Assembly (NCBI RefSeq): GCF_900087015.1
Contig: NZ_FLKP01000002.1
Location: 434,001 to 498,000, forward strand
From: Christensenella timonensis
Lineage (GTDB): Bacteria; Bacillota; Clostridia; Christensenellales; Christensenellaceae
Reading direction: 5' to 3'
Length of the DNA stretch: 64,000 bases
A program made the translations under genes and the position numbers. Positions 9,357 to 47,713 of this stretch are shown here, piece after piece. A model generated the notes under the pieces. That model was given only the letters and a program-made list of their open reading frames with translations, was not told the origin of the DNA and made no database searches. How positions within the stretch are numbered: the first letter of the stretch is position 1; each line of letters begins with the position of its first letter.

Positions 9357-9373
9357 GTTGGAGAGGGTTGAAC

Positions 9374-10690
9374 ATGGCTGTTAAGGTTGCGAAATTCGGC
9401 GGAAGCTCGCTTGCGTCCGCGGAGCAGATTTTGAAGATGAAGCAAATTATCGATGCGGATGAGGCGAGGAAGTTTGTCGTACCGTCCGCGCCCGGCAAGC
9501 GGTTTCCTGACGATATCAAGGTGACAGACCTGCTGTATGCGCTGCACGACGCCGCGCTGCGTTTAGACGATACGAAGGAAATTTACCAGAAGATCGTCAA
9601 GCGTTATACGGATATCCGTGACGAGCTCGGGCTTAGTATACGGATCGAAGAATATTTGGAAAAGATGTACGAGGATATCCGCACAGGGGCGAGCGAAGAT
9701 TACGCAGCTTCCCGCGGGGAGTATATGAACGGCCTGCTCATAGCAGACCTGCTCGGCTACGATTTTATCGATGCGGCAGATGTGATCTTCTTTAACGAAA
9801 ACGGCACATACGACGCCAAAAAGACGCTTGCAATCCTGCCGGGCGCACTGAAACTGCACGAACGCGCGGTCATTCCCGGATTTTACGGCAGCCTGCCAAA
9901 CGGCAAGATCAAAACGTTCTCGCGCGGCGGGAGCGATATCACAGGCTCCATCGTATCGCGTGCAGCCAACGCCGACCTGTACGAAAACTGGACGGATGTT
10001 TCGGGCTTTTTGATGGCTGACCCGCGCATTGTGGACGGGCCCAAAAAGATCGACGTGATCACCTATCGCGAGCTGCGGGAGCTTGCCTATATGGGTGCGA
10101 CGGTGCTGCACGAAGACAGTATTTTCCCTGTGCTTGAAGCGGCGATCCCCATCAATGTCAAAAACACCAATGATCCGAAGAACAGCGGGACGATGATCAT
10201 TCCGGCGATCGAAGGGCGCGACGGCGCCAAAGAGGGCATCACAGGGATCGCGGGCAAAAAGAATTTTACGGTCATCACCATTGAAAAAGACGGGATGAAC
10301 GCGGAAATTGGTTTTGGACGCAAGCTGCTTGGCTGTCTGGAAAAATTCGGGCTTTCCTACGAGCATATGCCGTCTTCCATCGATACGATATCCATTGTCA
10401 TTGCGGACGTGCGCGTACGCGGCGTGATCGAACAGCTGATCGACGAGATCCACGCGCAGTGCCAGCCGGACAGCGTGGAGGTCTCTTCCAATATGGCCAT
10501 CATCGCGACGGTCGGCCGCGGCATGATCCGCCAGATCGGCGTATCGGCAAAGCTGTTTTCGGCGCTTGCGAAAAATCATGTGAATGTGCGCATGATCGAC
10601 CAGGGAAGCAGCGAGATCAACATCATCGTGGGCGTGGAAAACGACGATTTTGAAAAGGCGGTACAGGCGATCTACACCGCGTTGGTATAG
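9374..10690 (+). CDS. lysC: Aspartate kinase
   Basis: Phosphorylates aspartate, the first step to lysine, methionine and threonine. The product has 438 residues. The N-terminus VAKFGGSSLA is the kinase signature, FSRGGSDITGS lies near residue 183, and the catalytic domain ends near residue 290. Two ACT domains follow (I-T-G-I-A-G-K-K-N-F-T-V and MAIIATVG-R-G-M), so feedback control by lysine or threonine is expected. The length fits a single-function aspartokinase. The pathway end product dapL lies elsewhere in this window (21.7 kb). The start at 9374 has GGAGAGGG upstream. A structured repeat begins 14 bases after the stop. Confidence 0.92.
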   Translation: MAVKVAKFGGSSLASAEQILKMKQIIDADEARKFVVPSAPGKRFPDDIKVTDLLYALHDAALRLDDTKEIYQKIVKRYTDIRDELGLSIRIEEYLEKMYEDIRTGASEDYAASRGEYMNGLLIADLLGYDFIDAADVIFFNENGTYDAKKTLAILPGALKLHERAVIPGFYGSLPNGKIKTFSRGGSDITGSIVSRAANADLYENWTDVSGFLMADPRIVDGPKKIDVITYRELRELAYMGATVLHEDSIFPVLEAAIPINVKNTNDPKNSGTMIIPAIEGRDGAKEGITGIAGKKNFTVITIEKDGMNAEIGFGRKLLGCLEKFGLSYEHMPSSIDTISIVIADVRVRGVIEQLIDEIHAQCQPDSVEVSSNMAIIATVGRGMIRQIGVSAKLFSALAKNHVNVRMIDQGSSEINIIVGVENDDFEKAVQAIYTALV

Positions 10691-10704
10691 GAGGCAAATG
10701 ATCC

Positions 10705-10800
10705 GGCAGAGCTGTGCCGACGTTTGTAAGAGTGAGTTTTTGCGGAGCAAAACCCGAACGGTTTGCAAACGGCCGCAGCGATTGGCGGTAAACCCGGCGG
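10705..10800 (+). repeat. Structured intergenic repeat, copy A
   Basis: About 95 bases shared with 46012-46108. The most conserved part is 10731-10765, with only one base difference. An outer stem pairs 10721-10730 with 10762-10771, and an inner hairpin pairs 10736-10743 with 10747-10753 around a 3-base loop. Between the copies the outer stem shows a T-A to C-G double change and a G-T pair becoming C-G. The wobble pairs are only allowed in RNA read from the plus strand, the direction of the flanking genes. The family is not known to me. Confidence 0.75.
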
Positions 10801-10827: not shown

Positions 10828-11805
10828 ATGATTTTTGACGCATTGCAGGCTGTATTGATGGTTGTGGTCATCATTGCGGTCGGGTATTTCGTTTCGTATA
10901 AGGGATGGGCAAATAAAAGCGTTACCGGCTTCACCAGCAAGCTGATCGTCAATATCACGCTGCCGGCTACGGCGGTTATGGCTTTTTTCAATAGTTTTAC
11001 CGTGGATACGCTCGCGGCATCATGGGTATATATCGCCGCATCCTTTGCAGCGATCGGCGCGCTCTATGCCCTAAGTAAGCTGGTTGCCAAAATTGCAAAA
11101 ATCAAAAAAACACAGCGCGGCGTTTTTACCGCGTTGTTTTCTTTTTCCAATTCCGTTTACATCGGCCTGCCCGTCGCGACTGCGATCTTCGGCCAAAATG
11201 CGCTGGTGTTCGCGCTGTTTTACTACATGGCCAATACCACGTTTATGAACAGTGTGGGCTTTGTGGAAATCGCACGGGACGGGATGCAAATTGCCTGCAT
11301 AGAGGATGGGACAGGCTCTTTGCCAAAGAAATGTTTCACCGGAAAGCAGATCGTAAAAAAAGTATTCCAACCGCCCATGATCGCGGTGATTGTCGGTTTT
11401 TTGCTGGTGCTGCTGCGGATAGAGCTGCCCGATTTCCTGTCGTCGGCGCTTACCTATATCGGCGATATCACCTCGCCGCTCGCACTGCTTTTTGTGGGAA
11501 TGATCCTGCACCGCGCCGGTATTTCCTGCCTGAAAAAGATAGACAGGGGTATCTCGCTTTCCCTTCTGGGGCGCTTTGTGGCGGCGCCGCTCATCATGCT
11601 GGCTGTGGCAGCGCTGTTCGGCCTGCCCAAGCTGCCGACTGAGGTACTGGTCGTCCAGATGAGCTTGCCGGCCATGGTCGCGACGGCGATCTTTGCGGAG
11701 ATTTCGCATGCGGATACGGAGTTTGCAACAAAAGGGGTGGCGGTTACCACGCTGCTTTCCTTTGCGGCGATCCCGGCCTATATATTATTGTTTGCATATT
11801 TATAA
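10828..11805 (+). CDS. AEC family transporter (auxin efflux carrier type)
   Basis: The product has 325 residues and about ten membrane helices arranged as two five-helix halves. The N-terminal half contains the pattern S-N-S-V-Y-I-G-L-P-V and the C-terminal half a matching L-P-A-M-V-A-T-A segment, both typical of AEC permeases. Bacterial members export or import organic acids and some amino acids; the substrate here is not evident. It follows aspartokinase with only the structured repeat between, so transcription from upstream through the repeat is plausible. Confidence 0.88.
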   Translation: MIFDALQAVLMVVVIIAVGYFVSYKGWANKSVTGFTSKLIVNITLPATAVMAFFNSFTVDTLAASWVYIAASFAAIGALYALSKLVAKIAKIKKTQRGVFTALFSFSNSVYIGLPVATAIFGQNALVFALFYYMANTTFMNSVGFVEIARDGMQIACIEDGTGSLPKKCFTGKQIVKKVFQPPMIAVIVGFLLVLLRIELPDFLSSALTYIGDITSPLALLFVGMILHRAGISCLKKIDRGISLSLLGRFVAAPLIMLAVAALFGLPKLPTEVLVVQMSLPAMVATAIFAEISHADTEFATKGVAVTTLLSFAAIPAYILLFAYL

Positions 11806-38926: not shown

Positions 38927-39003
38927 TGGCGTTCCCGGCGCGATTCGAACGCGCGGCCTTTCGCTTAGGAGGCGAACGCTCTATCCTGCTGAGCTACGGG
39001 AAC
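38927..39003 (-). tRNA. tRNA-Arg (anticodon CCT)
   Basis: 77 bases with encoded CCA. The acceptor stem is GTTCCCG with CGGGAAC, the D arm GCTC...GAGC, the anticodon stem TTCGC/GCGAA around the loop CT-CCT-AA, and the T arm GCGCG-TTCGAAT-CGCGC. The anticodon CCT reads AGG. Confidence 0.95.
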
Positions 39004-44492: not shown

Positions 44493-45998
<1,506 letters not shown>

Positions 45999-46011
45999 AT
46001 ATTCTAATTCC

Positions 46012-46108
46012 GGCGGAGTGATGTTGGCGCTTGCAAGAGTGAGTTTTTGCGTAGCAAAACCCGAACGGTTTGCAAGCGACCGGAACGACGACGGTAAGAC
46101 GGACAGAT
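46012..46108 (+). repeat. Structured intergenic repeat, copy B
   Basis: Same element as 10705-10800. The outer stem pairs CGCTTGCAAG (46028-46037) with TTTGCAAGCG (46069-46078), and the inner hairpin pairs 46043-46050 with 46054-46060. A second pair, GTTGG with CC-gg-AAC, extends the stem outward. It lies between leuA and cimA, in the direction of transcription. No T run follows. Confidence 0.75.
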
Positions 46109-46123: not shown

Positions 46124-47713
46124 ATGGATAAAAAAATCTACACGTTCGATTCCACCCTGCGCGATGGGATGCAGGGGGAAGGCATCGCTTTCTCGGTGGA
46201 AGACAAACTGAATATCGTACATGCACTCGATAAGCTCGGCATCGATTTTATCGAAGCGGGAAATCCCGGTTCCAATCCGAAAGACCTGGAGTTTTTCCGC
46301 AGGATCGCTACTGAGAAGCCAAGGCACGCCAAGCTGTGCGCCTTCGGCAGTACGCGGCGCAAAAATATTTGCCCGGAAGAGGATGCCAACGTATGCAGCC
46401 TGCTGGAAGCGGAAACTCCGGCAGTTTCGATCTTCGGAAAAGCGTGGGACTTGCATGTATTAAAAGTATTAAATACCACGCTGGAAGAAAACCTTAACAT
46501 GATCGAGAGTACGGTCGCCTATATGAAGCGGCACGACAAGTACGTTGTTTTTGACGCGGAGCACTTTTTCGACGGCTATATGGCCAATCCGGAATATGCA
46601 ATGCTCGCCCTTGACGCGGCAGCCCGCGGCGGCGCGGACGTGCTTTGCCTGTGCGACACGAACGGAGGCACGTTCCCCACAGATATCGCGGATATCACGG
46701 GGCGCATGGTGAGGACGTTCCCCGAAGCGGAGATCGGCATCCATTGCCACAACGATACGGGCATGGCGGTCAGCCAGACCATGATGGCAGTGGAGGCGGG
46801 CGCTACGCAGGTGCAGGGCACGTTTATCGGTTATGGGGAGCGCTGTGGAAACGCAAACCTTTCCACGATTATCCCCAACCTTGAGCTCAAGCGCGGTTAT
46901 ACCGTGCTGGGGAAAGGGAACTTAAAACGCCTCACGGAAACGGCGCGGCAGGTCGCGGACATTTCCAATATCTGGCTGCCGTCGGGGAGCCCATATGTGG
47001 GGAGCAGCGCCTTTGCGCACAAGGGCGGCATGCACATCGACGGGGTGAAGAAGATCCGCGAAAGCTTTGAGCATGTGGATCCGCAGAGTGTCGGCAACAA
47101 CCGCCGGTACCTGATGAGCGAGGTATCCGGCAAGGCGACGATCCTAAAGAAGATACAACGGATCGAGCCATCCGTTGGCTCCAAGGATCCGGTCGTGGGC
47201 GAGCTGGTCGACAAGTTAAAGCAGCTTGAGTTCGAGGGCTATCAATTCGAGGCGGCGGAGCAAAGCTTTGAACTGGTGATCCGCAGGCTGTTGGGCAAAT
47301 ACAAAAAGTATTTTGAATTGGAATACTTCAAGATCATCGGCGAACAGCCGCTAAAGGATGCGGAATATCCTTCGTCCGCGATCATCAAGGTCAAGGTAGG
47401 CGATGAATCGCGTATCACGGGCGCGGAAGGCGACGGCCCGGTGCATGCGCTCGACCTCGCGCTTCGTAACGCGCTCAAGGGATTTTATCCGTCGCTTGTG
47501 GACATGCGGCTTGTGGACTACAAGGTGCGCGTGCTGGAAAGCTCGGCAACGACGGCCGCAAAGGTACGCGTCCTCATTGAATCCACGGACGGAAAGCACC
47601 GCTGGAACACGGTTGGCGTTTCCACAGACATCATTGAGGCAAGCTTTTTGGCGCTCACGGACTCCATCGAGTATAAGCTTGCGCTGGATGAGAACGAAAA
47701 CAATACGAACTGA
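46124..47713 (+). CDS. cimA: (R)-citramalate synthase
   Basis: Condenses pyruvate with acetyl-CoA to citramalate, giving 2-ketobutyrate for isoleucine without threonine dehydratase. The product has 529 residues, the long CimA form. The start FDSTLRDGMQGEGIAF, H-C-H-N-D-T-G near residue 208 and G-Y-G-E-R-C-G-N match the LeuA superfamily, and the overall sequence groups with citramalate rather than isopropylmalate synthases. The neighbour leuA confirms that two distinct synthases are needed. The C-terminal regulatory domain probably senses isoleucine. The start has AAAGGA upstream. Confidence 0.9.
   Translation: MDKKIYTFDSTLRDGMQGEGIAFSVEDKLNIVHALDKLGIDFIEAGNPGSNPKDLEFFRRIATEKPRHAKLCAFGSTRRKNICPEEDANVCSLLEAETPAVSIFGKAWDLHVLKVLNTTLEENLNMIESTVAYMKRHDKYVVFDAEHFFDGYMANPEYAMLALDAAARGGADVLCLCDTNGGTFPTDIADITGRMVRTFPEAEIGIHCHNDTGMAVSQTMMAVEAGATQVQGTFIGYGERCGNANLSTIIPNLELKRGYTVLGKGNLKRLTETARQVADISNIWLPSGSPYVGSSAFAHKGGMHIDGVKKIRESFEHVDPQSVGNNRRYLMSEVSGKATILKKIQRIEPSVGSKDPVVGELVDKLKQLEFEGYQFEAAEQSFELVIRRLLGKYKKYFELEYFKIIGEQPLKDAEYPSSAIIKVKVGDESRITGAEGDGPVHALDLALRNALKGFYPSLVDMRLVDYKVRVLESSATTAAKVRVLIESTDGKHRWNTVGVSTDIIEASFLALTDSIEYKLALDENENNTN

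Follow-up and report, generated by a model that had tools for sequence, protein, structure and literature searches.

A repeat that occurs twice in the 64,000-nucleotide stretch analysed here (the window) is most probably (about 0.75) a palindromic interspersed repeat, non-autonomous and limited to one lineage, that is dispersed through the intergenic DNA of Christensenella timonensis. As part of the same best explanation, the repeat, which we call element X, would go back to the shared ancestor of C. timonensis and one congener, having either originated there or been acquired. Element X is dispersed, occupies sites that differ between species, contains shared and exchanged parts and maintains its fold. 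It is best read, by analogy, as working like BIME, BOX and REPIN elements, an assignment to general kind only.

We compared the C. timonensis source genome (G000; 2,650,850 bases in two contigs, C1 and C2) with five congeners (G001 to G005), giving six genomes for the genus. The nine copies in G000 were lettered A to I, and the window holds A and B. A preliminary description of the window had noted two intergenic copies on the plus strand, and both are there. The unit is ~93 nt long and lies on the plus strand, with limits set by a covariance model of all nine copies. Copy A spans 10699..10791 (105.2 bits, with a model built from this copy and the eight others), and copy B spans 46006..46097 (98.6 bits, same model). 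When the structure is mapped by alignment columns, the outer stem of copy A pairs a 5′ arm at 10703..10712 with a 3′ arm at 10778..10788; its inner stem has a 5′ arm at 10718..10743, which includes the TTTTGC arm of the top hairpin (10738-10743), and a 3′ arm at 10747..10775, which includes the GCAAAA arm (10747-10752). The corresponding arms of copy B lie at 46010..46019 and 46085..46094 for the outer stem and at 46025..46050 and 46054..46082 for the inner stem. In a repeat search, A and B share an 80-nt block with 83% identity; none of the other direct-repeat families listed for the window (17 in all) is longer. Their near-identical core, AAGAG...TTTGCAA, measures 41 nt and has the single difference described earlier, which falls in the hairpin loop. 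The two outer-stem changes that had been proposed, T-A to C-G and T.G to C-G, are real in the alignment, at columns 26/72 and 30/68 respectively. The GC content of element X is 0.53-0.64.

Profile matches bear out the neighbours named in the preliminary description, all on the plus strand. Copy A lies downstream of an aspartate kinase gene (9368..10690; NF006540, 551 bits, cut-off 434) and upstream of an AEC/Mem_trans transporter gene (10828..11805; PF03547). Copy B lies between the 2-isopropylmalate synthase gene leuA (44493..45998) and the citramalate synthase gene cimA (46124..47713; TIGR00977). A and B start 8 and 7 nt past a stop codon. No Rfam 15 family scored above threshold at either copy, and two and three weak sub-threshold matches occur nearby (E 0.57 to 2.6). 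A tRNA gene on the minus strand at window positions 38930-39003 is the sole Rfam match above threshold in the window.

A DNA search with copy A recovered eight other copies in the 2.65-Mb genome, at E values of 1.3e-22 to 8.2e-8, well beyond chance expectation. We discounted a further match of 18 bp (E 0.52), the tenth, as noise. Three copies are on the plus strand (A at 444.7, B at 480.0 and C at 737.8 kb) and six on the minus strand (D at 1993.4, E at 2075.3, F at 2079.8, G at 2086.2, H at 2098.4 and I at 2121.5 kb). With up to three mismatches allowed, the core pattern gave 9 + 10 matches versus 1 + 1 for the reversed pattern. The preliminary description had proposed a covariance-model search, with a lack of further copies, or loss of the stem in them, as the outcome that would count against it. 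The nine-copy model recovers the same nine copies and adds two from G002: a whole copy (97.1 bits) and a truncated one (31.2 bits), the latter being the only instance of the adverse outcome.

Outside these two genomes, the same model, run with stricter filters, found no element X in G001, G003, G004 or G005. Matches in three of the 55 non-congener genomes of the 61-genome set were at chance level (E 0.3 to 0.99) and were dropped, and four short matches (E 0.001 to 0.01) were discarded as noise. A DNA search of 396 genomes sampled from the order, at E<=1e-4, matched G000 and G002 alone. Two patterns gave no exact match in a wider contig collection, from which the source genome and near genomes may be omitted; this zero is weak evidence of absence, because G002, which fits the second pattern, was not returned either. 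We rejected a phage or plasmid origin: there was one 22-bp match to a Gordonia phage (E 0.07), none in plasmids, and no exact core match in viral contigs. Among the papers listed for Christensenella and intergenic repeats, none refers to repeats of this type in its title or the start of its abstract.

We compared the sites with those of the closest congener, G002, a comparison between species in which one genome represents C. timonensis. Eight of the nine sites could be placed: seven (A, B, C, E, F, H, and I) lack the element in G002 and one (G) carries a copy truncated at its 3′ side. Site D (1993 kb) was not located in the G002 stretches compared. At site A, the gap is 137 nt here versus 54 element-free nt in G002; the leuA-cimA gap at site B, the cleanest empty site, is 125 versus 19 nt; and site F is 217 versus 4 nt. 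In the sequence preceding the AEC gene and cimA, no element was seen in any of the five congeners (in G001, the 330 nt examined ahead of the AEC gene stop short of the kinase gene). The G002 gap at site C contains a stretch resembling the 3′ tail of element X, which could be an element remnant. At site G, the 3′ arm is gone from the G002 copy, and the loss lies, by eye, between two AGCG repeats. The whole G002 copy, between argB and argD, begins and ends with CCGGCGG; it is missing in G000, where one CCGGCGG is left. No intact copy is common to both species at the eight placed sites. No target-site duplication was seen at site B relative to its empty counterpart, and the other sites are too diverged or mosaic. 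A GATTGAT direct repeat lies near both ends of some copies; we did not accept it as a target duplication, because several copies are without it.

The stem is maintained across copies. We examined ten whole copies, nine from G000 and one from G002. Standard pairs occupy 95.3% of 299 cells, in a structure fitted to nine of these copies, which favours it. Both sides have changed in 10 of 30 pairs, compared to 4.2 (sd 1.4) in shuffles, and none of 500 shuffles reached 10. The covariation score was 0.269 versus 0.185 (sd 0.013), again reached by none of 500; the number of further pair types was not unusual (242 of 500 shuffles). As the copies are related, we also used a tree-aware null in which the changes of each column are simulated on the tree. 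It gave 4.0 double-change pairs (sd 1.5), with 0 of 400 simulations reaching 10. The excess over both nulls agrees with the earlier view of a selected fold, more than a simple DNA repeat. On copy-specific branches, we counted ~7 double changes, 19 pair-keeping single changes and 10.5 pair-breaking ones (means of 50 reconstructions). This compensation exceeds what is expected of a dead copy and therefore leaves room for a host function. Single copies fold little better than shuffles (RNA z -1.85 for A and -1.45 for B); the evidence for the fold comes from comparing copies.

The plus strand is the more likely folding strand, since the lower energies are mostly on that strand and A.C is more depleted than G.U. 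With RNA energies, the plus strand was lower in all ten copies; with DNA energies, it was lower in eight, and in B and G the minus strand folds better. For copy B, the minus strand has the better z-score with both sets of energies, which counts against a pure plus-strand reading. The fitted structure contains 28 G.U cells (tree null 38.8, sd 5.0) and 5 A.C cells (null 17.5, sd 4.4), and a structure chosen without wobble pairs contains 11 and 5. G.T is also tolerated in DNA, so the wobble data do not decide between RNA and single-stranded DNA, and the asymmetry shows which strand folds, not which nucleic acid. Of the earlier argument that wobble pairs imply plus-strand RNA, the strand is supported and RNA in particular is not, since DNA energies also favour the plus strand in 8 of 10 copies. 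In paired columns, wobble-making transitions numbered ~25.7 against ~20.8 wobble-breaking ones, and in unpaired columns ~13.8 against ~14.7; as this result was mixed, we did not use the substitution spectrum as a mutation-bias test for wobble pairs.

All copies share one orientation relative to replication. Across 26 sampled stretches, GC skew turns from minus to plus once, at 358-434 kb of C2 (the origin side), and from plus to minus once, at 1568-1680 kb of C2; C1 is minus in all three of its samples. The nine G000 copies and the two G002 copies, the latter by local skew, all have their plus strand on the leading, positive-GC-skew strand (11/11). Genes are mostly co-oriented with replication in many bacteria and the copies cluster, making the 9/9 count weaker than it looks. 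Transcription opposes replication at three insertions (F; G, which is common to G002; and argB-argD in G002), and all three follow replication.

Element X has relatives in its surroundings. An all-against-all comparison of G000 stretches uncovered further repeats around X copies, including two families. Family Y has six matches in G000, partial ones included, two in G002 and none in the other four congeners; family R2 has five, two and none, respectively. The outer arms of Y are those of X (TGATCC...GTTTGC and TGCAAA...GGTAA), and the top hairpin differs. The Y left arm is identical to copy G at 25 of 28 positions. In a shuffle test covering copies A, F and G, none of 5000 shuffles matched the arm similarity to G and F, on the left or on the right; for A, 2 of 5000 did so on the left and 0 on the right. 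Applied to the six Y loci, the X model finds three (33, 21.6, and 20.4 bits; E 1.2e-5, 0.018, and 0.04) and misses three. On the upstream side of X, R2 adjoins copy G and stands ~30 nt from copy H; it runs into the X left arm, and between 2100 kb and copy G it matches at 84% over 151 nt. Because its outer arms are common to Y and its top hairpin is different, X looks like part of a group of palindromes whose parts can be exchanged. Four Y matches in G000 are on the minus strand, all in minus-skew regions, and two partial ones are on the plus strand; in G002, there is one each way.

Other repeats lie in the same part of the genome. At ~2,133 kb of C2 (L083 about 1430-1476), a Y-type left lead is joined straight to a Y-type right arm, a junction that looks like the scar of a Y-element deletion. 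Repeat pairs near X include L051:9122-9259 with L053:12797-12932 and L053:12962-13037 with L053:13117-13193. The 2.07-2.13 Mb region contains several repeat families. At ~2,068.6-2,071.0 kb of C2 (L051:2554-4959), three 265-aa ORFs with the same first 60 residues lie head to tail, and G002 has a similar pair (L055:8218-9831). This tandem amplification adjoins an enolase-like gene, recognised by eye, and a Lys/Arg/Glu-rich repeat protein.

How might such elements spread? Searching the six genomes of the genus for Y1/RAYT transposases (PF01797), we found none in G000, G002 or G003. Y1 genes are present in G001 (one, stop-interrupted; C1:2554320-2554571), G004 (C28:127558-129742) and G005 (C17:121879-122235), and X, Y and R2 were not found in these three congeners. 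A RAYT-driven REP is rejected for the present genomes, as no Y1 gene was found in either carrier. A DNA search of G000 with copy A gave no larger or further element with the same ends. We suggest that copying or movement took place on DNA exposed as a single strand at the replication fork, with a helper that may now be lost or may go unrecognised. IS200/IS605 elements, which are moved by Y1 transposases and described as inserting into the lagging-strand template (PMC6006769), are our model for such coupling. Copies could be lost by deletion, through slippage between short direct repeats at the hairpin base. Several points speak against the mobile-repeat reading: no helper was found, no target-site duplication was seen at site B, compensation on copy-specific branches leaves room for a host function, nine copies are few for a mobile family, in B and G the minus strand is the better DNA folder, Y is not confined to one replication strand, and the X model missed three of six Y loci. 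A variant that we rate as rather unlikely would make X and its relatives a system of modular mobile hairpins, folded in single strands, with shared arms and exchangeable tops, inserted in step with the fork and independent of Y1/RAYT; either an unrecognised helper or host replication and repair would copy the hairpins between operon gaps.

The gene context bears on whether the element is kept for a role in mRNA. All nine copies were judged intergenic. Mechanical ORFs run across some of the copies, for example ahead of the start of the argB domain and behind upp; we judged these ORFs to be spurious and took the true gene starts to lie downstream. Like A and B, five other copies are in the sense orientation: C, after upp and before a terminator-like hairpin; D, flanked by a 2Fe-2S thioredoxin-like gene and by an [FeFe]-hydrogenase-like gene whose match falls below the curated cut-off; E, between an ABC ATPase gene and proS; H, between nusG and rplK; and I, between radA and a PIN-domain gene. 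Two copies are antisense to both flanking genes: F, between argC and the amino-acid-kinase gene argB, and G, between a GNAT gene and a small membrane protein gene. (We recognised rplK and the small membrane protein gene by eye from translations.) The preliminary description had the element follow the direction of transcription; this is so for seven of nine copies in G000, and it fails for F, G and both G002 copies (argB-argD and GNAT). The flanking genes have no common theme. An amino-acid-gene riboswitch or attenuator is rejected, as copies also lie at upp, radA, nusG/rplK, proS and hydrogenase-like genes and the five congeners lack both A and B, and an intrinsic terminator was rejected by eye, there being no T-run after the stem. 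A processing site or regulator tied to amino-acid genes, the former among the earlier suggestions, is contradicted by the same two observations.

It is unlikely that X is a cis-acting RNA (a processing site, stabiliser, or regulator) that spread to operon gaps and was kept for its action in mRNA. Such a role fits the seven sense copies between co-directional genes, the position of C ahead of a terminator-like hairpin downstream of upp, the plus strand that folds best as RNA, and pairs that are compensated even on terminal branches. However, F, G and both G002 copies are antisense to their neighbours, no intact copy is in the same place in both carriers at the eight sites placed, the neighbours lack a common theme, and neither A nor B has an Rfam match above cut-off. 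On the mobile-repeat reading, a copy within an operon could still fold in the mRNA and may tune it, with no intact copy found at the same place in both species.

We consider it very unlikely that X is a simple DNA repeat, not selected for folding, in which template switching or quasi-palindrome correction keeps the arms complementary. Palindromes are prone to such arm correction, which would give double changes without function. Yet arm correction predicts near-perfect arms and equal G.U and A.C, whereas bulges remain and A.C is more depleted than G.U. A family of independently transcribed small RNAs, another of the initial suggestions, matches the compact hairpin of fixed length but is highly improbable given the tight fit in the gaps, with A and B starting so soon after stop codons, and the copy number and sites that differ between sister species.

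The gut genus Christensenella thus gains a family of interspersed palindromes. It also offers a small natural test of repeat spread without RAYT, with sister species, different sites, traceable gains and losses, and a clear replication direction. Covariation between repeat copies is not, on its own, evidence of a functional RNA, as mobile DNA hairpins can give the same signal. Annotators should not read such elements in operon gaps as riboswitch-like candidates.

Among known systems, integron attC sites have RYYYAAC/GTTRRRY end boxes and occur in cassette arrays; these end boxes are not evident by eye in the ends of the X copies, whose consensus is TTGATCCGGCGG ... CGGTAA. The guess that X is a REP-like mobile unit is supported as to general kind and fails the tests for a RAYT-type tag and transposase. 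X is an extragenic palindrome that can form one long hairpin with compensatory changes, a trait by which REP and REPIN sequences are judged. As described in PMC3116915, PMC6006769, PMC3733652 and PMC2817692, REPINs and BIMEs resemble X in being extragenic hairpins with compensatory changes, in excision that leaves a few terminal bases, and in movement proposed to proceed via single-stranded DNA. X differs from REPINs in having nine copies rather than usually >100, no RAYT/Y1 transposase found in its carriers, and no GTAG/CGTC tag: among the 11 left and 10 right ends compared by eye, none of GTAG, GTGG or CGTC is shared at 0-2 nt from the hairpin. Like MITEs as described in PMC3049150, X is short, highly paired and dispersed, with empty sites in a relative; unlike them, it is not AT-rich, has no known parent insertion sequence and showed no target-site duplication at site B.

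BOX, in Streptococcus pneumoniae, is described as a modular, interspersed and strongly paired repeat that is abundant in one species, less so in the nearest relative and nearly missing from others, that has no clear tie to gene function and that can be transcribed (PMC3049150). According to the same account, BOX carries inverted repeats at its ends, is accompanied by target-site duplications and differs between copies in boxB number, whereas between X and Y it is the top hairpin that differs, a comparison of descriptions rather than of BOX sequences. BOX, RUP and SPRITE in pneumococcus are reported on the leading strand at 61-63%, with BOX at ~61% (PMC3049150), compared to 11 of 11 copies for X. 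X and BOX are alike in their modular build, their interspersed pairing repeats and their narrow spread, a likeness of build only and not of homology.
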